Positions 14,311-63,317 of a DNA stretch of 64,000 nucleotides are shown in pieces. The stretch comes from Hysterangium stoloniferum. Lineage: Eukaryota; Basidiomycota; Agaricomycetes; Hysterangiales; Hysterangiaceae. The notes under the pieces are model-generated. The model was given only the letters and a program-made list of their open reading frames with translations, made no database searches and was not told the DNA's origin. Location of the stretch: NCBI GenBank assembly GCA_015178975.1, contig WHVD01000110.1:124001-188000 (forward strand), written 5' to 3'. Made by a program: the position numbers and the translations under genes. The first letter of the stretch is position 1. Each line of letters begins with the position of its first letter.

Positions 14311-16394
14311 GATGTCGTCGATAGGTTGTCCCTGTAGAAGATAAAGCCATTCCGTGGGTAGTGTCAGTCAGGATAAGTCTGTGCGTTTTGTCCTTCCGGT
14401 TTGGTGGAACCCGTACAAGAATCGATAGAGCTTGACCCTTCACTGAATGTAATGAATGGGTGTCTCATGATTGTGACCGGCCTGTCGAAACTTCATGGCT
14501 TCCCATTCTAGAGCCAAGGATTCGCGCCAACGGGTTCCAAGTAATCCTTCTACGATGCCCCAAAGAAACGATCTGTGAGATCGACTAAACTCAGTGCGAT
14601 GTTCACGGTCTAGGGTGCTCCACCAGATCTTAGCACTGCCAGTGAGTCGTCTTGGCAGAGCGACTCCCAACAATATACTCATGGAGTCAGAGATCTCCGA
14701 GAGGCTCATAATATCCATGATGTAATCCAACACCTTGGATTGAGTCCCATCGTATTCGGGAAGGTCTGACCATTTGATCTTGATGACGTTGGTGTTAAGA
14801 GCAATTCTTTTATCCTTAGGTAAGTCATCGATAGGCACGCTAGCTCGAGGTTGCATCGGAGTTTGAAAGGGAGAGTTAGGTACTCTACCGTGACACCCCC
14901 CACGTCCCGAATTCCCTCCATAGCTTGAGGTACTAGAACTCCCAGATGAATTACTAGGAGGTCCTCCTGATGGCAGAAAAGGGTTGAAGGAGATCGGCAG
15001 GGAATGGCAAGGATCGACTGGATTCAGCAATCCTCGACCAGCAACCTGACCAGCTATACCCTCGGTGAATGCAGTGGAGAAAGACGGTCGACCCCTGTTG
15101 GCAACTGATCGATATCTAGTCGTAGTTGGTTCATCACCCATGTTCGTATTGCCAGGGATTTGTTCGAACGCGACGCGAGAGCGGTGACTTTCCTGATGGG
15201 GGGTAGGGCTAGGTTCCGTCGCGATCCCTCTCTCGATTTCGACCGTATTCAGACCGTATTCAAAGGTTGATGAGGTTGAGGTTGAGGTTGATAGAGGGGG
15301 ATGCATATTTCCATTCCTTTTCCCTGAAGACGTTCCGCCACCTGCATCCTCATGTCAGACGGGAAGTTTTGCAAAATAATGGGACGATTGAGCGAATGAA
15401 GGAAATGAGTGTCGGGAGAGCCATTCAGGGTATGAACAAACGAACTTGTTGTGGAGATGGGCGAATCGGGTACGTGGATGGAATCACCATAAGGGTAAAG
15501 CACTTCCAAAACCATCTTATCGAGTCTTCTCTGATTTCGCCTTAACTGACCCCTTAAAGTGAAATACGCAAATAAAGAATTCTGAGTAATCCCGTTAAAA
15601 GACTCCTCCAGCATCCAAATGTATATATACTGGTAGTCGACTTTGGGGACGATGTGATCCCCACCGAGTAGGACGTGAAGGATTTGTAACACGTCATCGT
15701 GCGTGCGGAGTGCGTCGTGTTAAAGGCATAGAAAAGAATTGACCCAGCCTGGGATTGAACCAAGGACCTCCTGGCTTTATATGCAGGTGCTCTCAACCAC
15801 TGAGCTACTGGACCTATAGTCTAGTATTATATGATGGATTATATATACATATATATAAGGACTTATGATGCCAACTTGTGCTCTTATAACAGTTTATATA
15901 ACTGATGGGCAAGCCTGGGTCTTATAACAGTCTGTCACATATAGATATTGTATTTTCCCATTTCTAACATGTCGAGGAATGAAGAGAACACCTCTTGTTT
16001 AAGAACCGTCCTCCCTCCTTCCATAACAGAAGTAACTTCACTCGACCATTCGGGATCAAGCGAGTCAAGTCCTCAAGGGTTCCAGGTCGTAAGAATAGAT
16101 CCTGTGCCGATAAAATAGCCTGATAACGACCTAACCAGACTGCTACAGTCACCGGTAAAAGGGGGTAGTCCGTATTGTACTCCTCCACAAAGGGAGTAAC
16201 CTGATCCGTAGAAATTCGGTCGGCGTAGTACGCATCCCATTGTAAGTCGATGGGCTGGGCGTAAATCATATGACCCCTAAAGAATTGCTTAAGGATGACC
16301 TGTTTAGGCGGGAATGAGAGAACGGGTTCAGAAGCATGGGTAATTTCAACTTAGCTCCAGGGACGTTCAACTGCTCAGTTGACGGATGTTCTTC
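14311..16394 (-). pseudogene. GyB-1 Gag N-terminal part, broken
   Basis: Matches the uninterrupted GyB-2 Gag (22546-20357) along its length in three frames. Pieces lie at about 15306-14440 (a capsid-like region with IKWSDLPEYDGTQSKVLDYI and the IWWSTLDREHR block), 15692-15307, and 16269-15970. An LTR-F insertion at 15718-15969 interrupts it. Small indels near 14365, 15250-15310 (a GAGGTT repeat-rich stretch) and in the upstream piece break the frame. The W-rich block resembles retrotransposon gag proteins of the Ty3 type. Confidence 0.8.
15718..15969 (-). repeat. solo LTR-F in GyB-1 gag
   Basis: On the minus strand it begins TGTTAGAAATGGGAAAATAC and ends ACTTTTCTATGCCTTTAACA-like sequence. 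The flanks CGTCG (15713-15717) and TGTCG (15970-15974) are a 5-bp duplication with one C/T change. It contains the tRNA-like block described under TRIM-F. Confidence 0.88.
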
Positions 16395-30069: not shown

Positions 30070-30138
30070 TGTTAGAAATGGGAAAATACAATATCTATAT
30101 GTGACAGACTGTTATAAGTCCCAGGTTTGCCATCAGTT
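30070..30138 (+). repeat. LTR-F, first 69 bp only
   Basis: Starts TGTTAGAAATGGGAAAATAC and stops at GCCATCAGTT where LTR-D of CoE-4 begins. The rest is lost, so the CoE-4 insertion was followed by a deletion. Confidence 0.88.
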
Positions 30139-37309: not shown

Positions 37310-37560
37310 TGTTAGAAATGGGAAAATACAATATCTATAAGTGACAGACTGTTATAAGACCCAGGCTTGCCATCAGTTATATAAACTGTTATAAGAGCAC
37401 AAGTTGGCAACATAAGTCCTTATATATATGTATATATAATCCATCATATAATACTAGACTATAGGTCCAGTAGCTCAGTGGTTAAGAGCACCTGCATATA
37501 AAGCCAGGAGGTCCTTGGTTCAATCCCAGGCTGGGTCAATTCTTTTCTATGCATTTAACA
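37310..37560 (+). repeat. LTR-F at a deletion in CoE-2
   Basis: 251 bp, TGTTAGAAATGGG to ATGCATTTAACA. The flanks ATTTG and CTGGG do not match. Compared with CoE-3 (45835-46198) about 364 bp of RT are missing exactly at this unit. The tRNA-like block is at 37464-37537. Confidence 0.93.
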
Positions 37561-37924
37561 CTGGGAGGTCAACAAGTTCCCATGTCTTGTTCTCTACCAA
37601 TGTATTGTACTCTGCATTGATAGCTTCTTGCCATTTATCTGCATCATCACCTTTCATAGCCTGCTTGTAGTTTTGTGGATCAGCAGTTGAAGCTGTTCCA
37701 ACAAACTGTACTTCCTCATAACCAATGTCCTCATCATCATCCTCAGCTGGAGCTAGAACTGGTGGTACCTTCCACCATTCACCAGGTTGCTTTGAAACAC
37801 GCTGAGAGCGACGAAGCTGTGGTTCTGGTGCAGGTGGAGGAGGTAGTTGAATAGGTTCTTCAACACCAGGAGGAGGCAAAGGTGGTTCAGGAAGTGCAGG
37901 AATCTGAGCAGGAGGTGCAGGAAC
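37561..37924 (-). pseudogene. CoE-2 linker and start of RT
   Basis: Reads VPAPPAQIPALPEPPLPPPG, then QLRRSQRVSKQPGEWWKV, the acidic DEDIGYEEVQ block and NKTWELVDLP. It continues the frame of the gag-integrase part at 47724-50038 once CoE-3 and one GGAAC copy are removed. Confidence 0.92.
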
Positions 37925-38273
37925 TGTTAAAACTGCCTCCACTGTCTCCAAGACCTTCTGGAACCTTCTAGAACCTTCTAGAAGCTTCCAGCATGTTCCA
38001 GAGTATTCCCAGTTCATTTCCCATGACAGCTGTCAATCAGCTGTCACTTTGTATTCCAGCTGTCAATCAGCTGTCAGTTTCCATTCAAGCTGTCAATCAG
38101 CTGTCACTTATGACAGCTGTCAACCAGCTGTCAACCAGCTGTCACTTATGACAGCTGACAAGCCTACTGATGTATAACATATATAAGCTTGTAGTTAGTG
38201 ACCTGAATAGTAACAACTTTCCTCAGACTTGTGTGTGTCACGTGTCACAGTAAGTCACAGGTCACTTTTAACA
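37925..38273 (+). repeat. 5' LTR-D of CoE-3, 349 bp
   Basis: TGTTAAAACTGCC to GTCACTTTTAACA. Heat-shock array at 37955-37989 (seven TTC/GAA units in 5-bp register), CAGCTGTCA array, and TATATAAG about 90 bp before the end. This is the likely promoter of the whole CoE-3 unit. Confidence 0.95.
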
Positions 38274-38515
38274 GGTTATGGGCCCCGCGCTCTAAGCGCT
38301 CTAGTACAGTATAACGTTTTGCAAACTCGCTTCTTTTGAGTAAGTTTCAGCCTATACTTTTATATTCCCCTGCCAGGCCCAGCCTTATTGCTGTTGCTAG
38401 TAGGGAGGAACTTGTACGCCACTAAGGCTGAGTTTCCCTCGAGACTACCGTCTGGACCTCGAGTTAAATACCTTTTTTCTGAACTTCTTTGCGAGTTTGC
38501 TCTGTGTATACTACA
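38274..38515 (+). promoter_or_regulatory. CoE-3 primer site and leader
   Basis: GGTTATGGGCCCCGCGCTC follows the LTR without a spacer. Its first 12 bases are complementary to the anticodon stem-loop end of initiator tRNA-Met (GGGCCCATAACC), as in the half-tRNA primer of Drosophila copia. The rest of the 242-base leader is TC-rich and non-coding. Confidence 0.8.
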
Positions 38516-38846
38516 ATGTCATCTTCCATCCCCCAATTCCCTAAACTCAACTCTCATAACTACAACACCTGGTCTGGTGAGATGCAGGCTTGGCTTCGTG
38601 CCCAGGGTGTCTGGCGCATTGTTGAGGCCACCTCCATTGCACCTGCACTATCCTCATCTCCCACAGAGGCTCAGCAAACTGCATTTGATGCTTGGGCTCT
38701 CAAGTTAGACAAAGCAGCAGGTTGGATGTACTTGAGTGTTGAGGATGATCAAAAGATTCATCTTAAAGGGATTGAGGGTGATCCGGTCAAGATGTGGACC
38801 AGTCTGTGTGATGTACACTTGCAGAAGCGCCCTGGCATGCGCTTCA

Positions 38847-39151
38847 TGTTAGAGTATGATATTACAGCTCTTACATAGTCTATGATGTTCCCTATATTTT
38901 TCTGATATTTGTAGTATTTTTCCCAGCACTGTAGGTGCAGTATTGAGTGAGTTACCTAGTAAGGTAACTGATGTGTAGGTGCTTAGGTAAGCACCCTGTA
39001 GTATACTCCGCTGTGGGTGTGGGAAAGTCTCCTTAGTGTTTACTTTCCTCACACTCACAGGTATGTAGTTATTTCACAGTTGAATACATTAAGTGTTTAC
39101 TTTCCTCACACTCACAGGGTGTTTGTCAAGAGTTATTCAACTGTTTCAACA
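38847..39151 (-). repeat. solo LTR-G, 305 bp, in CoE-3 gag
   Basis: TGTTAGAGTATG to TGTTTCAACA with a perfect duplication CTTCA (38842-38846, 39152-39156). Same LTR as CoH, so CoH or a relative was active after CoE-3. Confidence 0.95.
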
Positions 39152-42100
39152 CTTCAATGCGTATGATGATCTCTTCTCCATCAGAAAGGAAGAGAATGAG
39201 AATTTGCAAACTCTGATGAATCGGGTGGATCTAGCCATCCGTGCCATCCAGGATCTGCGCCCATTGAATTTTGATCTTGCCAAACTTGATGAGGAACTTG
39301 CATCAATGGCAATGATCAGGGCACTTCCTGAGCAGTTTGACAACTTTGCCTCTTCTCTCCTTCTGATGGACAAGCTGGACAAGGCTACTATCCAACAAGC
39401 TTTTGTCACAGAAGAGTCACAACGCCGTCATCGGGCTTCACAAGCTCCTGCAGTTGCATCTCCACTTACTGTAAAGGGCAATGCATCCACTGCATTTCTC
39501 AAATGTACTTTCTGCTCTATGACCAACCATACTATGGACAAGTGTCATCGCTTCATTAAGAAGCAGCAGGAAGCACAGGAGAGTGTCCTTACCAATCGTG
39601 CTAAAGGGAAGAAGAAGCCAAATAGGCCTCAGAAGACAATGTCTCAGAACAATGTTGAATATACTGGAAATGCACTTGCTTTCTCCTCATCCGATTCCTC
39701 CACCCTGCAGAATGGTTCTGACTATGATTGGCTTGCTGATACAGGTGCTAGTAGTCATATGACTCCTCATAGTCATTGGCTGCGTAACTACACACCATTA
39801 TGTGTCCCAATCAAGTTAGCAGATCACACTGTTATCTACTCTGCAGGAGTTGGTTCTGTGGTATTCAACCCAGTTATAAATGGAAGGAAATCGCGATCTG
39901 TGGAACTTACAAGAGTTTTGCATGTACCACAACTGCGCAGTAACCTACTGTCTTGTCTTTATCTCACAAGGCACAAAGGACTACTCATACACATTGATCG
40001 AACAACAATGCATTTCAAACACTCTGGACAGACTATGTTTACAGCCAGAGTTACTGCACAGAATGCAGGTATCCTCAATGGTGTCACTGCACCTATTATT
40101 GAGCAAGCTGGTGCTGTCTCCACCCTTCCCTTTGATATCAATCTCTGGCATCGCCGTCTTGGACACCACAGCTATGCTGATGTCCAGAAGATGATCAGAG
40201 AAGGATTGGTGGTTGGCTTAAACCTTGACTCAAAGGAACAGCCTGATCCCATCTGTGAACCTTGCCTTGCTGGCAAAATGACTGCTAGTCCATTCCCTAT
40301 CTCACCAAGTCATTCTCAGATACCACTTGAACTTATTCATAGTGATCTACATGGACCACTTCCTGTGCAAACAACTGAGGGTTATCACTACTGGATAACC
40401 TTTATTGATGATTGCACCAAGTTGCGAGCTGTTCTGTTCTTGAAACGGAAGAGTGATGCATTTGAAGCATTCAGGAGATACAAAGCTTATGCTGAGAATA
40501 TTCTGGGTTGCAAGGTCAAAGCTCTGCAGGATGACAAAGGGGGGGAGTATATGTCAAATGCCTTTATCAAGTTTACAGATGAATGTGGAATAGTACGCCG
40601 CCATACTACTCGCAATCGCCCTCAACAGAATGGAGTTGCAGAAAGAGCCAATCGCACTATGGCTGATCATGTCACTGCCATGATGCATGAGGCGCGTATG
40701 CCTGCTTCTTTCTGGAACCATGCTGTGACATCTTATGTCTATGTATGGAATCGTCTACCTACTGCACCATTACCTAAAACTACACCCTATGAGCAATGGT
40801 ACAAGCAGAAACCAGATGTGAGCAACTTGCGAGTGTGGGGGTGTACTGCCTATGTTTACATTCAAAAGGACAAAAGGAAGTCACTTCAGTCACACATGGA
40901 GAAATGCCTCTTTCTAGGCTATCCTGTGGGATACAAAGGTTGGCAATTCTACAACCCTGTTACAAAGAAGTTTATCATCTCTGAACGGGCTGTATTTGAT
41001 GAACGCCACTTTCCTGGTCTATCTACTACTGGACCAATGCCTAATATTAGGCTTTTCCCAAATATACCAAACTCTGACATTCCTTTATTTGTGCCAGAAG
41101 TAGAGGGGGATAATGATATTTCTGTCCCTCCTACTCATATTCCTGCACCTCCTGCTTATATTCCTGCACCTCCTGTTCAGATTCCTGCACCTCCTGCTCA
41201 GATTCCTGCACTTCCTGAACCCATTCAACTACCTCCTCCACCTGCACCAGAACCACAGCTTCGTCGCTCTCAGCGTGTTCCAAAGCAACCTGGTGAATGG
41301 TGGAAGGTACAACCAGCTCCAGCTCTAGCTGAAGATGATGATGAAGACATTGATTATGAGGAAGTCCAGTTTGTTGGAACAGCTTCAACTGCTGATCCAC
41401 AAAACTACAAGCAGGCTATGAAAGGTGATGATGCAGATAAATGGCAAGAAGCTATCAATGCAGAGTACAATACATTGGTAGAGAACAAGACATGGGAACT
41501 TGTTGACCTCCCAGTTGGTGCAAAGGCAATTGGTTCAGGTTGGGTGTTTAAAGTCAAACACAATGCAGATGGCACAATTGAGCGTTATAAAGCTCGTCTT
41601 GTTGCCAAAGGATATTCACAACGTCCTGGCATTGACTACAATGAAGTGTTTGCACCTACTTTTAGACCTGCAACTCTGCGTTTGATTCTGGCCCTAGCTG
41701 CCATTGAAGACATGGACTTGCGCTCTGTTGACATTTCTGCTGCTTTCACCCATGGTGACCTTGATGAGACAATCTATATGAGACAACCTGAAGGCTTCCA
41801 TCAAGGAGGTCCTAATAAGGTTCTCAGACTCTTGAAATCACTTTATGGTCTCAAGCAGGGATCTCGTCAATGGAACATCAAGTTACATGGTGCACTTACT
41901 GAAATGGAGTTCAAACGAATTGAATCTGATACCTCTGTTTACATTTATTCAAATGGAGAGGTCAAGATCTTTGTACCCATTTACATTGATGATATTACAT
42001 TTGCATCCAAGTCCACTCTTGCCATTGACAAAGCTGTCAAGCAATTGTCCCTGCATTTCAAATGCCGTGATCTTGGACCCACTGTTTATTTACTTGGTGT

Positions 42101-42259
42101 GGGAGTTGGCAGAGATCGCTCTAAGCGTCTCCTTACTCTTGATCAGCGACAATTTATTCTCAACATGCTTGAGCGTTATAACATGTCTGACTGTCATCCA
42201 GTTCTCACACCTATGACACCTGGTACATCTCTTTCCAAAGAAATGGGTCCTGAGAATGC

Positions 42260-42510
42260 TGTTAAAGGCATAGAAAAGAATTGACCCAGCCTGGGATTGA
42301 ACCAAGGACCTCCTGGCTTTATATGCAGGTGCTCTTAACCACTGAGCTACTGGACCTATAGTCTAGTATTATATGATGGATTATATATACATATATATAA
42401 GGACTTGTAATGCCAACTTGTGCTCTTATAACAGTTTATATAACTGATGGCAAGCCTGGGTCTTATAACAGTCTGTCACATATAGATATTGTATTTTCCC
42501 ATTTCTAACA
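42260..42510 (-). repeat. solo LTR-F, 251 bp, in CoE-3 copy 1
   Basis: Perfect duplication AATGC (42255-42259, 42511-42515). The tRNA-like block is at 42283-42356 on the minus strand. Confidence 0.95.
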
Positions 42511-42651
42511 AATGCTGCAGAGGTGGATTTCATGCGTAGTGTTCCTTATCTCAGTGCTGTTGGGTCTTTACAATACCTGGCTACTATGACCCGTCCAGAT
42601 ATTGCTTATACTGTGTCCTACTTGGCACGTTTTAATTGCAATCCTGGACCA

Positions 42652-42902
42652 TGTTAGAAATGGGAAAATACAATATCTATATGTGACAGACTGTTATAAG
42701 ACCCAGGTTTGCCATCAGTTATATAAACTGTTATAAGAGCACAAGTTGGCATCATAAGTCCATATATATATGTATATATAATCCATCATATAATACTAGA
42801 CTATAGGTCCAGTAGCTCAGTGGTTAAGAGCACCTGCATATAAAGCCAGGAGGTCCTTGGTTCAATCCCAGGCTGGGTCAATTCTTTTCTATGCCTTTAA
42901 CA
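42652..42902 (+). repeat. LTR-F in the place of a 5' LTR before CoE-3 copy 2
   Basis: 251 bp, left flank GACCA in copy-1 RNase H, right neighbour the CoE primer site GGTTATGGGCCCC. There is no target duplication. The arrangement LTR-F, primer site, CoE internal region is a junction between a TRIM-F and CoE within their shared primer site. Confidence 0.92.
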
Positions 42903-43145
42903 GGTTATGGGCCCCGCGCTCTAAGCGCTCTAGTACAGTATAACGTTTTGCAAACTCGCTTCTTTTGAGTAAGTTTCAGCCTATACTTTTATATTCCCCT
43001 GCCAGGCCCAGCCTTATTGCTGTTGCTAGTAGGGAGGAACTTGTACGCCACTAAGGCTGAGTTTCCCTCGAGACTACCGTCTGGACCTCGAGTTAAATAC
43101 CTTTTTTTCTGAACTTCTTTGCGAGTTTGCTCTGTGTATACTACA
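42903..43145 (+). promoter_or_regulatory. primer site and leader of CoE-3 copy 2
   Basis: GGTTATGGGCCCCGCGCTC and the same leader as 38274-38515, ending at the ATG at 43146. Confidence 0.8.
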
Positions 43146-46100
43146 ATGTCATCTTCCATCCCCCAATTCCCTAAACTCAACTCTCATAACTACAACACCT
43201 GGTCTGGTGAGATGCAGGCTTGGCTTCGTGCCCAGGGTGTCTGGCGCATTGTTGAGGCCACCTCCATTGCACCTGCACTATCCTCATCTCCCACAGAGGC
43301 CCAGCAAACTGCATTTGATGCTTGGGCTCTCAAGTCAGACAAAGCAGCAGGTTGGATGTACTTGAGTGTTGAGGATGATCAAAAGATTCATCTTAAAGGG
43401 ATTGAGGGTGATCCGGTCAAGATGTGGACCAGTCTGTGTGATGTACACTTGCAGAAGCGCCCTAGCATGCGCTTCAATGCGTATGATGATCTCTTCTCCA
43501 TCAGAAAGGAAGAGAATGAGAATTTGCAAACTCTGATGAATCGGGTGGATCTAGCCATCCGTGCCATCCAGGATCTGCGCCCATTGAATTTTGATCTTGC
43601 CAAACTTGATGAGGAACTTGCATCAATGGCAATGATCAGGGCACTTCCTGAGCAGTTTGACAACTTTGCCTCTTCTCTCCTTCTGATGGACAAGCTGGAC
43701 AAGGCTACTATCCAACAAGCTTTTGTCACAGAAGAGTCACAACGCCGTCATCGGGCTTCACAAGCTCCTGCAGTTGCATCTGCACTTACTGTAAAGGGCA
43801 ATGCATCCACTGCATTTCTCAAATGTACTTTCTGCTCCATGACCAACCATACTATGGACAAGTGTCATCGCTTCATCAAGAAGCAGCAGGAAGTACAGGA
43901 GAGTGTCCTTACCAATAGTGCTAAAGGGAAGAAGAAGCCAAATAGGGCTCAGAAGACAATGTCTCAGAACAATGTTGAATATACTGGAAATGCACTTGCT
44001 TTCTCCTTATCTGATTCCTCCACCCTGCAGAATGGTCCTGACTATGATTGGCTTGCTGATACAGGTGCTAGTAGTCATATGACTCCTCATAGTCATTGGC
44101 TGCGTAACTACACACCATTATGTGTCCCAATCAAGTTAGCAGATCATACTGTTATCTACTCTGCAGGAGTTGGTTCTGTGGTATTCAACCCAGTTATAAA
44201 TGGAAGGAAATCGCGATCTGTGGAGCTTACAAGAGTTTTGCATGTACCACAACTGCGCAGTAACCTACTGTCTTGTCTTTATCTCACAAGGCACAAAGGA
44301 CTACTCATACACATTGATCGAACAACCATGCATTTCAAACTCTCTGGCCAGACTTTGTTTACAGCCAGAGTTACTGCCCAGAATGCAGGCATCCTAAATG
44401 GTGCCACTGCACCTATTATTGAGCAAGCTGGTGCTACCTCCACTCTTCCCTTTGATATCAATCTCTGGCATCGCCGTCTTGGACATCACAGCTATGCTGA
44501 TGTCCAGAAGATGATCAGAGAAGGATTGGTGGTTGGCTTAAACCTTGACTCAAAGGAACAACCTGATCCTATCTGTGAACCTTGCCTTGCTGGCAAAATG
44601 ACTGCCAATCCATTTCCTACCTCACCAAGTCAATCTCAGACACCACTTGAACTTATTCATAGTGATCTACATGGACCACTTCCTGTGCAAACAACTGAGG
44701 GTTATCACTACTGGATAACCTTTATTGATGATTGCACCAAGTTGCGAGCTGTTCTGTTCTTGAAACGGAAGAGTGATGCATTTGAAGCATTCAGGAGATA
44801 CAAAGCTTATGCTGAGAATCTTCTGGGTTGCAAGGTCAAAGCTCTGCAGGATGACAAAGGGGGGGAGTATATGTCAAATGCCTTTATCAAGTTTACAGAT
44901 GAATGTGGAATAGTACGCCGCCATACTACTCGCAATCGCCCTCAACAGAATGGAGTTGCAGAAAGAGCCAATCGTACTATGGCAGATCATGTCACTGCCA
45001 TGATGCATGAGGCGCGTATGCCTGCTTCTTTCTGGAACCATGCTGTGACATCTTATGTTTATGTATGGAATCGTCTGCCTACTGCACCATTGCCTAAAAC
45101 TACACCCTATGAGCAATGGTACAAGCAGAAACCAGATGTGAGCAACTTGCGAGTGTGGGGGTGTACTGCCTATGTTTACATTCAAAAGGACAAAAGGAAG
45201 TCACTTCAGTCGCACATGGAGAAATGCCTCTTTCTAGGCTATCCTGTGGGATACAAAGGTTGGCAATTCTACAACCCTGTTACAAAGAAGTTTATCATTT
45301 CTGAACGGGCTGTATTTGATGAACGCCATTTTCCTGGTCTATCTACTACTGGACCAATGCCTAATATTAGGCTTTTCCCAAATATACCAAACTCTGACAT
45401 TCCTTTATTTGTGCCAGAAGTAGAGGGGGATAATGATATTTCTGTCCCTCCTACTCATATTCCTGCACCTCCTGCTTATATTCCTGCACCTCCTGTTCAG
45501 ATTCCTGCACCTCCTGCTCAGATTCCTGCACTTCCTGAACCCATTCAACTACCTCCTCCACCTGCACCAGAACCACAGCTTCGTCGCTCTCAGCGTGTTC
45601 CAAAGCAACCTGGTGAATGGTGGAAGGTACAACCAGCTCCAGCTCTAGCTGAAGATGATAATGAAGACATTGATTATGAGGAAGTACAGTTTGTTGGAAC
45701 AGCTTCAACTGCTGATCCACAAAACTACAAGCAGGCTATGAAAGGTGATGATGCAGATAAATGGCAAGAAGCTATCAATGCAGAGTATAGTACACTGGTA
45801 GAGAACAAGACATGGGAACTTGTTGATCTTCCAGTTGGTGCAAAGGCAATTGGTTCTGGTTGGGTATTTAAAGTCAAACACAATGCAGATGGCACAATTG
45901 AGCGTTATAAAGCTCGTCTTGTTGCCAAAGGATACTCACAACGTCCTGGCATTGACTATAATGAAGTGTTTGCACCTACTTTTAGACCTGCCACTCTGCG
46001 TTTGATTCTGGCCCTAGCTGCCATTGAAGACATGGACTTGCGCTCTGTTGATATTTCTGCCGCTTTCACTCATGGTGACCTTGATGAGACAATCTATATG

Positions 46101-47273
46101 AGACAACCTGAAGGCTTCCATCAAGGAGGTCCTAATAAGGTTCTCAGACTCTTGAAATCACTTTATGGTCTCAAGCAGGGATCTCGTCAATGGAACATCA
46201 AGTTACATGGTGCACTTACTGAAATGGAGTTCAAACGAATTGAATCTGATACCTCTGTTTACATTTATTCAAATGGAGAGGTGAAGATCTTTGTACCCAT
46301 TTACATTGATGATATTACATTTGCATCCAAGTCCACTCTTGCCATTGACAAAGCTGTCAAGCAATTGTCCCTGCATTTCAAATGCCGTGATCTTGGACCC
46401 ACTGTTTATTTACTTGGTGTGGGAGTTGGCAGAGATCGCTCTAAGCGACTCCTTACTCTTGATCAGCGACAGTTTATTCTCAACATGCTTGAGCGTTATA
46501 ACATGTCTGACTGTCATCCAGTTCTCACACCTATGACACCTGGTACATCTCTTTCCAAAGAAATGGGTCCTGAGAATGCTGCAGAGGTGGATTTCATGCG
46601 TAGTGTTCCTTATCTCAGTGCTGTTGGGTCTTTACAATATCTGGCTACTATGACCCGTCCAGATATTGCTTATACTGTGTCCTACTTGGCACGTTTTAAT
46701 GGCAATCCTGGACCAAAGCATTGGACAGCAGTGAAGCACTTGTTCAGATACCTAAAAGGTACACTGGATTACAAGTTGCATTACTCTGGCAAATGTGGCT
46801 CTGAATTATTCACCACATACACTGATGCTGCTCATGGTGATTGTATTGATTCTGGAAGATCCACTGGGGGTTATGTGACTATGATGGCTGGAGGTGCTAT
46901 TGGCTGGAGTAGTAAACTGCAAAGTATTGTCACACTTTCTACAACTGAAGCAGAATTTGTCTCTGCTGTAGACGCTGGCAAGGAGATTGCCTGGATGCGG
47001 CAAATCCTAGGTGAATTTGGCTACCAAGTTGATCAACCCTCCACTCTACACATTGACAACCAGTCTGCCATCAGTGTTGCTAAGAACCCTGAGCATCATG
47101 GAAGGATGAAACATCTTGACCTGCGCTACTATTGGCTTAGGGATGCTGTAAATGCCAAGTGTATTGCTCCTTCCTATATTCCTACTGCAGAACAAATTGC
47201 AGATATTCTAACCAAGCCTCTATCAACTCCCAAGGTTCAATTTTGCCGTGATGGAATGGGTATAAAGACTTAG
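43146..47273 (+). CDS. CoE-3 copy 2 Gag-Pol polyprotein, intact
   Basis: The most complete gene in the window. The frame opens at 43119, but the ATG at 43146 (MSSSIPQFPKLN) matches the start of the other copies: 1375 aa. Counting from 43119: gag 1 to about 230, zinc knuckle CTFCSMTNHTMDKC at 236, protease DTG at 314-316, integrase HHCC from 451 (HRRLGHHSYADV ... CEPCLAGK), catalytic D516, D578 and E615, a linker with repeated IPAPP units at about 770-810, RT with YIDD at 1062-1065, and RNase H with TDAAHGD at about 1235 and TTEAE at about 1276. One frame without stops means Gag-Pol is made as one protein. All catalytic motifs look intact, but its immediate 5' LTR is an LTR-F, so its promoter must be that or the LTR-D at 37925. 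Confidence 0.96.
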   Translation: MSSSIPQFPKLNSHNYNTWSGEMQAWLRAQGVWRIVEATSIAPALSSSPTEAQQTAFDAWALKSDKAAGWMYLSVEDDQKIHLKGIEGDPVKMWTSLCDVHLQKRPSMRFNAYDDLFSIRKEENENLQTLMNRVDLAIRAIQDLRPLNFDLAKLDEELASMAMIRALPEQFDNFASSLLLMDKLDKATIQQAFVTEESQRRHRASQAPAVASALTVKGNASTAFLKCTFCSMTNHTMDKCHRFIKKQQEVQESVLTNSAKGKKKPNRAQKTMSQNNVEYTGNALAFSLSDSSTLQNGPDYDWLADTGASSHMTPHSHWLRNYTPLCVPIKLADHTVIYSAGVGSVVFNPVINGRKSRSVELTRVLHVPQLRSNLLSCLYLTRHKGLLIHIDRTTMHFKLSGQTLFTARVTAQNAGILNGATAPIIEQAGATSTLPFDINLWHRRLGHHSYADVQKMIREGLVVGLNLDSKEQPDPICEPCLAGKMTANPFPTSPSQSQTPLELIHSDLHGPLPVQTTEGYHYWITFIDDCTKLRAVLFLKRKSDAFEAFRRYKAYAENLLGCKVKALQDDKGGEYMSNAFIKFTDECGIVRRHTTRNRPQQNGVAERANRTMADHVTAMMHEARMPASFWNHAVTSYVYVWNRLPTAPLPKTTPYEQWYKQKPDVSNLRVWGCTAYVYIQKDKRKSLQSHMEKCLFLGYPVGYKGWQFYNPVTKKFIISERAVFDERHFPGLSTTGPMPNIRLFPNIPNSDIPLFVPEVEGDNDISVPPTHIPAPPAYIPAPPVQIPAPPAQIPALPEPIQLPPPPAPEPQLRRSQRVPKQPGEWWKVQPAPALAEDDNEDIDYEEVQFVGTASTADPQNYKQAMKGDDADKWQEAINAEYSTLVENKTWELVDLPVGAKAIGSGWVFKVKHNADGTIERYKARLVAKGYSQRPGIDYNEVFAPTFRPATLRLILALAAIEDMDLRSVDISAAFTHGDLDETIYMRQPEGFHQGGPNKVLRLLKSLYGLKQGSRQWNIKLHGALTEMEFKRIESDTSVYIYSNGEVKIFVPIYIDDITFASKSTLAIDKAVKQLSLHFKCRDLGPTVYLLGVGVGRDRSKRLLTLDQRQFILNMLERYNMSDCHPVLTPMTPGTSLSKEMGPENAAEVDFMRSVPYLSAVGSLQYLATMTRPDIAYTVSYLARFNGNPGPKHWTAVKHLFRYLKGTLDYKLHYSGKCGSELFTTYTDAAHGDCIDSGRSTGGYVTMMAGGAIGWSSKLQSIVTLSTTEAEFVSAVDAGKEIAWMRQILGEFGYQVDQPSTLHIDNQSAISVAKNPEHHGRMKHLDLRYYWLRDAVNAKCIAPSYIPTAEQIADILTKPLSTPKVQFCRDGMGIKT

Positions 47274-47374
47274 TTTCTTGTTTTCTTTCTTACTCTCTGT
47301 AGTTTAGCAAAGTCTCTCTCTCTGTCTCTTTCTCTGTTTCTTTTTCTTTGGAGACATGTGAGATCAGGGGGGTC
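47274..47374 (+). promoter_or_regulatory. CoE-3 3' untranslated region and polypurine tract
   Basis: A TC-rich stretch with (TC)n, then GATCAGGGGGGTC directly before the LTR. Confidence 0.85.
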
Positions 47375-47723
47375 TGTTAAAACTGCCTCCACTGTCTCCA
47401 AGACCTTCTGGAACCTTCTAGAACCTTCTAGAAGCTTCCAGCATGTTCCAGAGTATTCCCAGTTCATTTCCCATGACAGCTGTCAATCAGCTGTCACTTT
47501 GTATTCCAGCTGTCAATCAGCTGTCAGTTTCCATTCAAGCTGTCAATCAGCTGTCACTTATGACAGCTGTCAACCAGCTGTCAACCAGCTGTCACTTATG
47601 ACAGCTGACAAGCCTACTGATGTATAACATATATAAGCTTGTAGTTAGTGACCTGAATAGTAACAACTTTCCTCAGACTTGTGTGTGTCACGTGTCACAG
47701 TAAGTCACAGGTCACTTTTAACA
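47375..47723 (+). repeat. 3' LTR-D of CoE-3, 349 bp
   Basis: Same variants as the 5' LTR. Heat-shock array 47405-47439, TATATAAG at 47630-47637. Right flank GGAAC, the target duplication of CoE-3. Confidence 0.95.
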
Positions 47724-50816: not shown

Positions 50817-51067
50817 TGTTAGAAATGGGAAAATACAATATCTATATGTGACAGACTGTTATAAGACCCAGGCTTGCCATCAGTTATATAAACTGTTATA
50901 AGAGCACAAGTTGGCATCACAAGTCCTTATATATATGTATATATAATCCATCATATAATACTAGACTATAGGTCCAGTAGCTCAGTGGTTAAGAGCACCT
51001 GCATATAAAGCCAGGAGGTCCTTGGTTCAATCCCAGGCTGGGTCAATTCTTTTCTATGCCTTTAACA
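50817..51067 (+). repeat. solo LTR-F, 251 bp
   Basis: Perfect duplication GGTAA (50812-50816, 51068-51072), in CoE-1 RNase H. Confidence 0.96.
50971..51044 (+). tRNA. tRNA-like sequence inside LTR-F (representative)
   Basis: 74 nt. Acceptor arms GGTCCAG/CTGGGTC pair over 7 positions, D arm GCTC/GAGC, T arm CTTGG/CCAGG with loop TTCAATC. A box TAGCTCAGTGG and B box GGTTCAATCC fit the Pol III consensus, and a TTTT run follows within ten bases as a terminator. The anticodon arm (CCTGC ... CCAGG) has one extra base and a mismatch, so I cannot assign an amino acid, and I take it as a Pol III promoter module rather than a working tRNA. Other copies: 37464-37537, 42806-42879, 51325-51398 (+), 42283-42356, 60190-60263, 60507-60580 (-). 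Confidence 0.7.
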
Positions 51068-51170: not shown

Positions 51171-51421
51171 TGTTAGAAATGGGAAAATACAATATCTATA
51201 TGTGACAGACTGTTATAAGACCCAGGTTTGCCATCAGTTATATAAACTGTTATAAGAGCACAAGTTGGCAACATAAGTCCTTATATATATGTATATATAA
51301 TCCATCATATAATACTAGACTATAGGTCCAGTAGCTCAGTGGTTAAGAGCACCTGCATATAAAGCCAGGAGGTCCTTGGTTCAATCCCAGGCTGGGTCAA
51401 TTCTTTTCTATACCTTTAACA
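51171..51421 (+). repeat. solo LTR-F, 251 bp
   Basis: Perfect duplication GGCTG (51166-51170, 51422-51426), about 100 bp from the previous LTR-F and in the same orientation, but with a different target, so a separate insertion. Confidence 0.96.
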
Positions 51422-53393: not shown

Positions 53394-53644
53394 TGTTAAA
53401 GGCATAGAAAAGAATTGACCCAGCCTGGGATTGAACCAAGGACCTCCTGGCTTTATATGCAGGTGCTCTTAACCACTGAGCTACTGGACCTATAGTCTAG
53501 TATTATATGATGGATTATATATACATATATATAAGGACTTATGATGCCAACTTGTGCTCTTATAACAGCTTATATAACTGATAGCAAACCTGAGTCTTAT
53601 AACAGTCTGTCACATATAGATATTGTATTTTCCCATTTCTAACA
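53394..53644 (-). repeat. LTR-F, 251 bp, at the CoH/GyB-3 junction
   Basis: Left flank ACAAG (CoH), right flank AAAAC (GyB-3). No target duplication, so it sits at a rearranged junction. Confidence 0.92.
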
Positions 53645-59441: not shown

Positions 59442-60166
59442 CCTCATCGTCCACATACCCCATGCAGACGGACTCCATTTCAAAAGCTACACCCTGGTCC
59501 TCTAATACTTGGGGGGCTCCCTCGGGAACATGGAGTGAAACCCCACCACCTTCTCATAGTATTTTCCCTTCTACCAAAGAGGAGATCAAAAAGAAACGGC
59601 AGTCCGAGGCTTTCTCTGCACAGGTCCAGGAGGAATTGAAAATGCTTAAACAGAAGAGGAGAGAGGAGTACTTAGAAGGACAGCGGAGGATGGGGGCTAG
59701 GGATAATGTCCCGTCAAGGCAGACATGGCAGGAATGGAGGAGAATGGAAGGGCACGACAATCCTTCAACCATTGCTCCCCCTTCGGGTCATAAATGGACG
59801 GATTTCGCTGAAACGGATTGCAGCGATGGGGGCACGCCATGTGTTCGGAGTGTGGGACAAAAAAGTAGGAAAGGAAAAGACAGAGTCACCTTCTATGATT
59901 GGGACAAAATGTGAAGGATCAAACTACAAAGTATTGCATTGCAACGTGGGGATGGAGTTGCACTACCTCCCAGACCCCCTTCACAACGTGGACCTCAGGA
60001 ACGGACATACCAGATGGGGCCTGGTGATCTTTCATCTGACTCAGAGGATGACCAATTGCGCTACCCCACCTACGACAGCAAGTACCTCGGTGCTGACTGC
60101 CATAAAGGTTTTCTACTCCCTGACAACATTCACTTCTTCACGAGTGATCCTAACCAACGACGAAAG

Positions 60167-60734
60167 TGTTAAAGGCATAGAAAAGAATTGACCCAGCCTG
60201 GGATTGAACCAAGGACCTCCTGGCTTTATATGCAGGTGCTCTTAACCACTGAGCTACTGGACCTATAGTCTAGTATTATATGATGGATTATATATACATA
60301 TATATAAGGACTTGTGATGCCAACTTGTGCTCTTATAACAGCTTATATAACTGATGGCAAACCTGGGTCTTATAACAGTCTGTCACATATAGATATTGTA
60401 TTTTCCCATTTCTAACACTTCCCCTGAAATCAATATCTAGTCTATACCCTATGCAGCGCACCAAGCTCACGGGGCCCATAACCTGTTAAAGGCATAGAAA
60501 AGAATTGACCCAGCCTGGGATTGAACCAAGGACCTCCTGGCTTTATATGCAGGTGCTCTTAACCACTGAGCTACTGGACCTATAGTCTAGTATTATATGA
60601 TGGATTATATATACATATATATAAGGACTTATGTTGCCAACTTGTGCTCTTATAACAGTTTATATAACTGATGGCAAGCCTGGGTCTTATAACAGTCTGT
60701 CACATATAGATATTGTATTTTCCCATTTCTAACA
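60167..60734 (-). mobile_element. TRIM-F: complete miniature LTR retrotransposon with tRNA-like LTRs
   Basis: Two 251-bp LTR-F in direct orientation (60167-60417 and 60484-60734) around a 66-bp internal region, flanked by a perfect 5-bp duplication GAAAG (60162-60166, 60735-60739). Total 568 bp. On the minus strand the internal region begins GGTTATGGGCCCCGTGAGC directly after the 5' LTR, which is the same primer site as copia CoE, and ends TTTCAGGGGAAG directly before the 3' LTR, a purine tract. No coding capacity. Each LTR carries a tRNA-like sequence (60190-60263, 60507-60580). These are all the marks of a TRIM moved in trans, and the shared primer site and TGTTA...TAACA ends point to CoE-type machinery. 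Confidence 0.93.
60418..60483 (-). promoter_or_regulatory. TRIM-F internal region: primer site and polypurine tract
   Basis: 66 bp. The primer site is at 60470-60483 on the minus strand, with 12 bases identical to the CoE site and complementary to the initiator tRNA-Met anticodon arm. The purine tract AGGGGAAG is at 60418-60425. About 40 bases separate them. Confidence 0.88.
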
Positions 60735-61615
60735 GAAAGCTACCGACTTCCGTCAGAGTTTGGAGGGGGTATCGTCCAGCCGACTCTGTGATGCCATCCA
60801 GCTCCACTCACCTCCCCCGACCTCTGCCCGTCTCTTCCGTACCCCCACTACAGCGCTTTACACCTTTTTCAGAGTTGCTGGGAGGTCTTGTACCATCCAC
60901 CGACCTGCCTTCTCTCCCCCCTATACCATTACCCCTTCCCTTCGTGGGACATTCCCTTATATCACCGTCCTCACCCATATCCAAGCCTTCTCCAGCACCG
61001 CAGCTGATCCTACCCCTCCACACGTCACCTGACCCTCTCGTCGCCTCCCACTCTACTCCGACGCCATTGCTCCCTGCAGTGTCAGACACTCCCCTTATTT
61101 CCTCGACAGCGTGGAGTCTACCGCCCACTCCTCCCTACTCCCCTTGTGTTTCTCTGGGAAGCCCCATTCAATATCCTAACGTTACATTAATGGATGTTGA
61201 TCACCCTATCTCGGAAGTTCTCGCAATACCTATGGAGGAAGTTCTCGCAATACCTATGGAGGAAGTTCTCGCAATACCTATGGAGGAAGTTCTCGAGGTG
61301 CCTCTCTCAGCCACAGAAGTCTCCAAGGAACCCCCCCCGGCAATGGAAGTCTTCGAGGAGCCTCCCCCCTTAAGTGAAAAAGCAAAAGGGAAGTGAAAAA
61401 CCAATATTCAGGCCAACAAGCCCCTTGTCATTGACCCTCCCCCGGCCGACCCCATTCATAGCCCCCCGCCACAGCCGCCCTCTCCCTTCCACTCTCAGGA
61501 TACGGCTGGCCCCTCTCATCCCTTCCAGTCAAGTTGGATGCGTGTGTCCATTAATTACCCCTCCGACATCTTCACTGTGGTCTTCTTTGACATAGCTCTT
61601 CGACCTGGGGGGCAC

Positions 61616-62504
61616 TGTGAGAGATATGGCAAAATACTCTCAGGAAATATAGTCGGATGAGCTCTTACTATATTCCCTTTATTATTTCTGTTTTCTCTCT
61701 ATTTTATTATACATCTATAATTAGTTCGACGACCTATGTATGCGGTACATTGACTCTTATGGGCGCATACACGCCAGACTTATGTATTCTAGCACTTGTA
61801 GTTAAAACTCAGACACTTTTACACCGCAACCACAACTTACCCAGACACCTGTTAGTGTCCTGTAAGTTGTGATTGGTGTATCGTCTTGTTAAAGGCATAT
61901 AAAAGAACTGACCCAGCCTGGGATTGAACCAAGGACCTCCTGGCTTTATATGCAGGTGCTCTTAACCACTGAGCTACTGGACCTATAGTCTAGTATTATA
62001 TGATGGATTATATATACATCTATATAAGGACTTATGATGCCAACTTGTGCTCTTATAACAGTTTATATAACTGATGGCAAACCTGGGTCTTATAACAATC
62101 TGTCACATATAGATATTGTATTTTCCCATTTCTAACACGTCTCGACCGTCACAGATGGGCTTTAGCTATCTACTCAATCAGAGTTTCAAACTGTACCAGT
62201 CGAAACTCAATCCTTTTCTCAACCCACATGGACTACATCCATGCTACTCTATTATTCGACTCTCTAGTTACTCTACTTTACACTCGAGCAGTTGTCCAGA
62301 ATCGCACTTAACAGTTGATTCTACTTATTCATTCTAGCTCTCTACTTTACTCTAGATAGCTACTTCTCTCTACCGTATTGAACTAAGTAGTCAATACGCA
62401 TCTGGTCTGTATTAGACTTAGACAGTCAATACATCTTAGTGTCGTACCTAAACGGTCGATATTCTTCGTATATAGAACGGTTAGAACTTCCACTACTCTT
62501 CACA
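61616..62504 (+). repeat. 3' LTR-B of GyB-3, split by LTR-F
   Basis: TGTGAGAGATATGGC to CCACTACTCTTCACA, about 633 bp without the insertion. Preceded by the GyB purine tract. Confidence 0.94.
61887..62137 (-). repeat. solo LTR-F, 251 bp, in the GyB-3 LTR
   Basis: Perfect duplication CGTCT (61882-61886, 62138-62142). Confidence 0.96.
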
Positions 62505-63317
62505 GCAACTGTGGTTGGTAGAGTTAATTTCTTTGGGGTATACTGTCTCATACTCGGGATCTGACTCTTCCTGTTCAGTGATCATGAGGGCTTCCCGTAA
62601 ATTATTGGCATAGGTCTGTAACCCCATTATGTATGTCATTGATGGGCTGTTCTTGCAATAAGTAGACCCATTCCATGGGTAGGGTCAAGATTAAACAGTG
62701 TGTTTCCTCCTTTCGATCCTGGTGGAAACCATAGAGAAACCTGTTAAAGGTATAGAAAAGAATTGACCCAGCCTGGGATTGAACCAAGGACCTCCTGGCT
62801 TTATATGCAGGTGCTCTTAACCACTGAGCTACTGGACCTATAGTCTAGTATTATATGATGGATTATATATACATATATATATGGACTTATGATGCCAACT
62901 TGTGCTCTTATAACAGTTTATATAACTGATGGCAAACCTGGGTCTTATAACAGTCTGTCACATATAGATATTGTATTTTCCCATTTCTAACAAAACCGAT
63001 ACAACTTGACCTGACACTGAATGTATTGCACCAGAGTTTCACGATCATGATGAGCTTGATGAAACATCATTTCTTCCCATTCAACCATGAGAGATTCATG
63101 CCACCTGGTCCCTAGTAAACCTTCAACAATGCCCCAAAGAAAAGATCTGTAAGATTGACTGAATTCAGTGCAATGCTCACAGTCTAGGGTGCTCTACCAA
63201 ATCTTTGCATTACCCATGAGTCATCTGGGCAGAGTGACTCCCAACAGGGCACTTATCGAATCTGATATTTCTGAAAGGCTTATATCAAGGATGTACTCCA
63301 AAGCCTTGGAATGACTC
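62505..63317 (-). pseudogene. GyJ gag fragment
   Basis: A GyA/GyB-related gag on the minus strand. It aligns with GyB-1 14180-14730 (the IHNLITMSYANNL-like and IYYLDQEQP-like blocks, then LGTRW, WWSTLD-like blocks) but is clearly more diverged than GyB-1 is from GyB-2. No long frame is open. It could be the GyA family, whose gag is not otherwise in the window. Interrupted by LTR-F. Confidence 0.75.
62742..62992 (-). repeat. solo LTR-F, 251 bp, in GyJ gag
   Basis: Perfect duplication AAACC (62737-62741, 62993-62997). Confidence 0.96.

Follow-up and report, generated by a model that had tools for sequence, protein, structure and literature searches.

A Helenus-type TRIM in Hysterangium stoloniferum and a likely Copia helper linked to it by LTR exchange

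The miniature LTR retrotransposon (TRIM) described here, TRIM-F, represents Helenus in a genome new to that group, as judged by each feature tested (anatomy, A and B boxes, target-site duplication, and primer-binding site). It lies in a 64,000-nucleotide stretch of a Hysterangium stoloniferum contig, which we refer to as the window. What is new relative to the literature that we found is a likely helper, a Copia element named Copia-A, which also resides in this window and which repeated exchanges of LTRs connect with the TRIM. We consider it probable that TRIM-F, as a Helenus-type element, has an internal Pol III promoter and is carried by Copia-A through co-packaging and intermolecular plus-strand transfer.

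Anatomy of TRIM-F

TRIM-F is a complete two-LTR element of 568 bp at positions 60167 to 60734 of the window, and the sense strand of both the element and its tRNA-like block is the minus strand. In sense orientation, the 5′ LTR (60484 to 60734; TGTTAG..TTAACA) and the 3′ LTR (60167 to 60417) are each 251 bp long and differ at 4 of these positions. We call this repeat LTR-F. The 66-bp core (60418 to 60483) begins with a primer-binding site (PBS; GGTTATGGGCCCCG, 60470 to 60483, minus strand) and ends with a polypurine tract (PPT; TTTCAGGGGAAG, 60418 to 60429, minus strand), assigned from its sequence, that adjoins the 3′ LTR. A target-site duplication (TSD) of GAAAG flanks the element at 60162 to 60166 on the left and 60735 to 60739 on the right. 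An earlier note on this DNA had given the same coordinates, LTR length, core with PBS and PPT, and duplication, and all of these proved exact on re-examination. The LTR pair, the PBS and PPT, the noncoding sequence, and the length below 1,000 bp (568 bp, with a 66-bp core) are those of a TRIM.

Each LTR contains a tRNA-like block, located at 60506 to 60580 in the 5′ LTR (LTR positions 155 to 229; minus strand) and at 60189 to 60263 in the 3′ LTR (minus strand). The block was called by ARAGORN and matches the Rfam tRNA family RF00005 with a score of 48.6 bits (E 2.8e-7; gathering score 29). Its A box and B box are TAGCTCAGTGG and GGTTCAATCCC, the A box having TGG as its final letters; in the 3′ LTR they occupy 60246 to 60256 and 60200 to 60210. 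A TTTT run that is a possible weak Pol III terminator, as read from the sequence, follows 4 nt past the block (60181 to 60184, and likewise 60498 to 60501; minus strand). The block with its A box, B box, and T run had thus been recognized correctly in the earlier note, whereas its length is 75 nt by ARAGORN and not 74 nt.

A Pol III-type block, a small size, and the existence of tandem TRIM arrays with steps of about 318 bp (contigs C4 and C534) could also bring to mind a SINE or an array of tRNA genes. The TG..CA LTR pair, the PBS, the PPT, the solo LTRs, and the 5-bp TSDs contradict this reading and rule out a SINE, and we regard it as extremely improbable. Cassandra, which has a 5S module, was also considered and rejected, since Rfam searches at gathering scores returned tRNA alone in the window.

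LTR-F copies in the window and the genome

Beyond TRIM-F itself, the window holds 10 further LTR-F copies, namely 9 full-length copies and 1 fragment (30070 to 30138, plus strand), rather than the "at least eleven more" first proposed. Five solo LTRs for which the earlier note had listed clean or near-clean duplications have perfect TSDs: AATGC at 42260 to 42510 (minus), GGTAA at 50817 to 51067 (plus), GGCTG at 51171 to 51421 (plus), AGACG at 61887 to 62137 (minus), and GGTTT at 62742 to 62992 (minus), the last two given in sense orientation. The flanks of the solo LTR at 15718 to 15969 (minus) agree at only 4 of 5 positions, and those at 37310 to 37560 (plus) and 53394 to 53644 (minus) do not match. 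The solo LTR at 42260 to 42510 lies within a Copia reading frame. Because it interrupts the frame of the left Copia unit, the TRIM also harms its likely helper. The remaining copy, at 42652 to 42902, is not a solo LTR and does not belong to a TRIM either; it is described below with the chimeras.

The genome assembly comprises 111 Mb in 554 contigs, with contigs of up to 4.4 Mb. With up to 3 mismatches allowed, the leading 32 nt of the block have 243 matches in it and the leading 26 nt of the LTR have 225, and backward-pattern controls for both searches gave 0 matches. Perfect 5-bp TSDs flank 14 of 21 solo LTRs in a genome set of which some members were selected because they match half of the block exactly. 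This set was drawn from 73 distinct of 143 BLAST hits, those with less than 60 nt of flank or with incomplete ends having been dropped. Three near-identical TRIM-F copies occur 5414 bp apart on one contig (C543:266371, 271785, and 277199). They seem to be one insertion that was segmentally duplicated in tandem together with its surroundings, which inflates copy counts.

Conservation of the tRNA-like block

All 11 full-length LTR-F copies of the window carry the 75-nt block by ARAGORN and Rfam. For the genome, we relied on loci chosen independently of the block. Among LTRs picked by U3 alone, the block follows U3 in 58 of 58, a count that leaves out 3 partial U3 pieces and copies with less than 150 nt downstream. 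In 62 copies of the main subfamily that were likewise not picked by the block, the A box is exact in 62 and the B box in 61, and the context of the weak T run is exact in only 53, which speaks against the Pol III reading; this set excludes U3 sequences less than 93% identical, and hence leaves out the sister subfamily F2 (L065, L068, L080, L083, and L084). The earlier note had stated that a functional Pol III module would be refuted if the block occurred in a minority of LTRs or if its boxes were not conserved, and these counts show the opposite on both points. Conservation figures from a set that included block-chosen loci were set aside in favor of the 62-copy set and the comparison of F with F2.

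A different reading of this conservation is that the block is a passenger, that Pol II transcribes TRIM-F from a TATA-like U3 as in an ordinary TRIM, and that the block is preserved by the youth of the copies. TATA-like stretches do occur about 20 to 45 nt upstream of the block in LTR-F, so Pol II transcription is possible for this LTR. Moreover, an F2 copy (L083, TSD GGTAA) with about 6 nt of the A box missing from each LTR has moved, and a small two-LTR element with a like PBS (L073/L074) has no tRNA detectable by ARAGORN. However, U3 has drifted between F and F2 in 42 of 166 columns and the block in 4 of 77 (Fisher p 9e-5; one sequence each, L065 versus the window LTR); the A and B boxes are identical, and all four block differences are indels in the anticodon arm. 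The mean minority fraction across the 62 copies is also lower in the block (0.0024) than in U3 (0.0136), a contrast that comes largely from 4 diagnostic U3 sites.

Further evidence against a passenger role comes from a more distant family, G (L089, L090, and L091), whose LTRs measure about 128 bp, with only about 33 bp ahead of the block, and whose core is about 154 bp. Its block still has 384 matches in the genome at up to 3 mismatches, and the family is more abundant than F. Because so short an LTR leaves scant space for a Pol II promoter, family G offers the best indirect case for Pol III. Overall, we find the passenger reading rather unlikely, and Pol III transcription of TRIM-F is predicted from sequence as the likely mode. 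Among the family G matches listed, at least 27 clusters counted by eye are spaced by about 283 bp, as expected of two-LTR copies, and ARAGORN calls the block tRNA-Ile in L090 and L091.

The block was also considered as a functional tRNA gene. The Rfam alignment places an extra base in its anticodon stem, which accompanies the Tyr-ATA call of ARAGORN, and we rejected this candidate because such a base would make a working tRNA unlikely. No parental tRNA gene of the F block was found among 20 fetched tRNA-matching stretches, in which the best other matches (Cys and Met) reach 0.71 identity; one of the 20 has no ARAGORN call, and one (L118) is itself an LTR-F. Elsewhere in the genome, many tRNA matches of about 95 nt are clustered on one contig (C112:987097-1219099), and the one fetched from there (L111) is Lys-CTT by ARAGORN.

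Primer-binding site

Two host iMet genes (L077 and L078) have an anticodon arm to which the 14-nt PBS of TRIM-F is exactly complementary. The primer is therefore probably an internally cut iMet. The primer tRNA of Drosophila copia is iMet. Priming from the anticodon loop is reported for that element in PMC10886601. A role of the tRNA-like block itself as primer was rejected because the PBS matches iMet instead.

Searching the genome with the PBS at up to 2 mismatches gave 64 matches, among them the host iMet genes. By hand, 30 of the 64 were recognized as TRIM-F cores, including the three from the C543 duplication, and 7 of these 30 have a Copia 5′ LTR. The count of 30 represents one core type; composite cores, and probably the cores of other full-length copies as well, are more than 2 mismatches away.

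Copia-A, the likely helper

The likely helper is represented in the window by a unit with outer Copia-A LTRs on the plus strand. The left LTR (349 bp, 37925 to 38273) is preceded by TSD GGAAC at 37920 to 37924, and the right LTR (47375 to 47723), which shows 0 of 349 differences from the left, is followed by the same TSD. The full internal region of Copia-A (42903 to 47374, plus strand) begins with 14 nt that are the TRIM-F PBS. It contains an open reading frame of 1386 aa (43113 to 47273, plus strand) with matches to copia gag, GAG-pre-integrase, the retroviral SH3-like domain, and RVT_2. The integrase core falls just below the Pfam cut-off (31.7 versus 32.6), and the C-terminal 190 residues are without a Pfam match. 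Among relatives of the Copia reverse transcriptase, the best matches have 86% identity; named fungal ones include those of Agrocybe chaxingu (76%), Taiwanofungus (63%), and Sparassis (62%), and named plant and arachnid proteins are at about 40%.

Copia-A and TRIM-F have in common the 14-nt PBS and the LTR ends TGTTA..TTTAACA, which yields a 21-bp identity at the junction of LTR and PBS. Otherwise, the two LTRs are similar at their ends only, and the cores share little besides the PBS. We therefore rejected a deletion derivative of Copia-A as the origin of TRIM-F, and the case for a partnership of the two elements rests on the PBS and the chimeras. Joints between a Copia LTR and the PBS number 78 in the genome at up to 3 mismatches. 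Two candidate Copia bodies beside PBS matches (L087 and L088) gave a Ty3-type element by translation and nothing useful otherwise. In L071, a frame that resembles a Ty3-type reverse transcriptase by eye lies downstream of an iMet-type PBS, a site found elsewhere here with Copia.

LTR-exchange chimeras

We found 13 loci in which LTR-F and Copia LTRs have been exchanged at the LTR-PBS junction, and perfect 5-bp TSDs flank 10 of them (9 of 12 when the window unit is left aside). Seven, obtained by comparing the PBS search with the search for Copia LTR-PBS joints and then confirmed by sequence, consist of a Copia LTR, a TRIM core, and LTR-F. Six of these have a TSD: L040 (ACGCG), L044 (CCTGG), L048 (TTACA), L052 (GATTT), L061 (GGTTG; its Copia LTR has an internal deletion), and L099 (ATCCA). 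The seventh, L043, has none. The complementary arrangement of LTR-F, Copia internal region, and Copia LTR is present in L028/L093 (TSD AGAGA) and in L096 (no TSD).

The other structures are composite. L092 reads LTR-F, Copia internal region, Copia LTR, core, LTR-F, and its TSD, TTTTT, is of low complexity. L094/L097 (TSD ATCAC) and L095/L098 (no TSD) read Copia LTR, core, LTR-F, Copia internal region, Copia LTR. The last structure is the window unit (37925 to 47723, TSD GGAAC), in which the outer Copia LTRs surround LTR-F and the internal region of Copia-A; here the 3′ end of the LTR-F at 42652 to 42902 (plus strand) passes directly, to the base, into the PBS and full internal region of Copia-A. 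Because GGAAC flanks the outer Copia LTRs, this LTR-F could be a later arrival. The joint between LTR-F and a Copia internal region occurs at 6 places genome-wide. L092, L094, L095, and L096 have one internal deletion in common in their Copia part and thus do not represent four fresh events. Together with the alike Copia LTRs of L040 and L048, this means that independent exchanges are counted with less certainty than loci.

Exchange on the PPT side gave 0 matches for the joint of Copia PPT with LTR-F and 0 for that of TRIM PPT with Copia LTR, at up to 3 mismatches in a genome search run without a genome-wide positive control. Like-with-like joints of PPT and LTR are present in the fetched loci.

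Chimeras of this kind could be assembly artefacts, in which repeats were joined over the 21 common bp, and an assembly in 554 contigs that is rich in repeats gives some room for this. A false join would part the two halves of a TSD, and yet 10 of the 13 structures retain both; the contigs, moreover, extend up to 4.4 Mb. We consider artefacts a very unlikely explanation of the set as a whole.

The chimeras might also postdate integration and stem from chromosomal recombination or gene conversion within the 21-bp LTR-PBS identity, in which case they would be uninformative on co-packaging. L043 has AGTTT on its left and CTTCT on its right, and L096 has CTTCT on its left and AGTTT on its right (contigs C68 and C256). 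These mirrored flanks resemble both products of one reciprocal exchange, which suggests that this pair arose by chromosomal exchange between Copia and TRIM-F at the LTR-PBS junction, although the pair may instead be a misassembly; 225 of 300 bases of the flank are repeat. L095 also carries no TSD. For the window unit, an insertion into Copia and subsequent recombination between LTRs would suffice as an explanation.

For the other chimeras, an origin after integration must contend with perfect 5-bp TSDs at the exact ends of six of the seven Copia LTR-core-LTR-F loci and of L028/L093, L092, and L094. Conversion of a whole LTR would require homology beyond the element. Furthermore, the Copia LTRs of the chimeras are diverse, with 87 to 99% identity to the Copia-A LTR of the window. 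We therefore judge a post-integration origin of the chimeras to be unlikely. The TSDs at exact ends indicate that most chimeras were complete before integration. The nucleic acids of TRIM-F and Copia-A would then have come together ahead of integration, and this is the strongest support here for Copia-A as the element that moves TRIM-F.

TRIM-F copies whose LTRs probably come from two parents

The LTR pairs of TRIM-F were compared at four U3 sites (57, 76, 101, and 104) that are polymorphic across the family and were derived from a set that included block-chosen loci. There are 21 two-LTR copies, of which the 7 without a TSD were left out. Among the remaining 14, 7 copies have LTRs identical across the 251 reference positions, differences at other sites are seen in 2, and the LTRs of 5, the window copy among them, are discordant at two or more of the four diagnostic sites; inserted bases are outside this comparison (the LTRs of L060 are unequal in length). 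In the window copy, the 4 LTR differences are exactly the four diagnostic sites. Because the differences sit at family-diagnostic sites, new mutations are hardly their cause, and two parental LTRs fit. Discordant pairs would be the LTRs of two parents brought together by intermolecular transfer or gene conversion.

Proposed mechanism

In the mechanism that we favor, transcription of TRIM-F would start near the block of the 5′ LTR, read through the weak T4 stop, and end past the block of the 3′ LTR, and the tRNA-like block would serve as the R region. The RNA would enter Copia-A particles by co-packaging, where a half-length host iMet tRNA would prime at GGTTATGGGCCCCG. The reverse transcriptase and integrase of Copia would then make and insert the TRIM-F copy, with a 5-bp duplication. 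Because the TRIM and its helper have the PBS and the LTR ends TGTTA..TTTAACA in common, cross-transfer of plus-strand strong-stop DNA is possible. This DNA, ending in the PBS, would cross to the minus strand of the partner, and the product would have one LTR from each parent; the exact step at which this happens is our inference. Recombination between cDNAs over the 21 common bases could give the same joint.

From the sequences at hand, Copia-A likely mobilizes TRIM-F. It need not be the sole helper, since in L084 the core and LTR of F2 adjoin a different LTR family (ending GATTTCTAACA) as well as a PBS with other internal sequence. LTR exchange thus extends beyond Copia-A, and more than one helper is possible. 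The stretch behind this second LTR family, X, contains no long frame in L120. A smaller two-LTR element is also present in the genome (L073:339-716 in sense orientation; L074 is alike), with a 162-bp repeat seen, a 54-bp spacer, and the same kind of PBS.

We more tentatively propose that TRIM-F and Copia-A form one recombining system, in which PBS-based LTR swaps are frequent and composites may move with either LTR type; we lean slightly against this broader view. The same composite unit is bounded by LTR-F in L092 and by Copia LTRs in L094.

Comparison with known systems

The TRIM-F anatomy, in which both LTRs hold a tRNA-like module of Pol III type, bears out the analogy to Cassandra drawn in the earlier note. 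However, a tRNA-derived version in a mushroom is not the new variant that had been suggested, as TRIMs with a tRNA in the LTR were published in 2024 as Helenus, including in Agaricus bisporus and Coprinopsis cinerea (PMC10886601). There, Kojima (2024) describes such TRIMs from organisms that include Agaricomycetes, with fungal TSDs of 5 bp and a PBS for the iMet anticodon as the commonest type. The features of Helenus set out in that paper include a tRNA-like sequence with A and B boxes in each LTR of a TRIM, a PBS and PPT, 5-bp TSDs, solo LTRs, an iMet anticodon-loop primer, and inflated tRNA gene counts, and all have their likeness here. A Copia helper is inferred there as well, and the common PBS and the chimeras support one as likely here. 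The host genome and the families F, F2, and G are new.

The evidence for the helper also differs. In PMC10886601, the helper is inferred because PBSs are similar and because a single internal match was found across species, whereas here a Copia element of the same genome, with an open frame, is linked to the TRIM by LTR-exchange chimeras. Words starting with "chimer" or "hybrid" are absent from the main text of PMC10886601. Kojima's paper treats the basis of TRIM dependence as unknown and indicates no helper for Cassandra (PMC10886601). Cassandra resembles TRIM-F in having the promoter of a small-RNA gene within a TRIM LTR (PMC10886601) and, reportedly, in forming tandem arrays (Kalendar 2020), and differs in that its module is 5S rRNA, in plants, and that of TRIM-F is tRNA-like.

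Retrotransposon complexes of the Triticeae, as presented by Sabot and Schulman 2007 (PMC1950507), similarly have internal LTRs and 5-bp TSDs and involve switching between co-packaged RNAs. They are built from similar elements, with three alike LTRs and a switch at R (PMC1950507). TRIM-F and Copia-A, in contrast, have unrelated LTRs and cores, the pair includes a Pol III-type TRIM, and switching takes place at the LTR-PBS junction. We found no published report of a Pol III-type TRIM that exchanges LTRs with its helper in a search that lay mostly outside subscription journals. LTR swapping between autonomous and non-autonomous elements was reportedly described in soybean by Du et al. in 2010, for larger elements without a Pol III module.

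Because the two LTRs of one copy can derive from different parents, LTR divergence is unsafe for dating such copies. The LTRs also inflate the tRNA counts of such genomes. A likely helper with an open frame beside the TRIM, together with many joint products in the genome, makes the bond between parasite and helper testable. If the proposed mechanism is true, the common primer site would be the physical basis of that bond.
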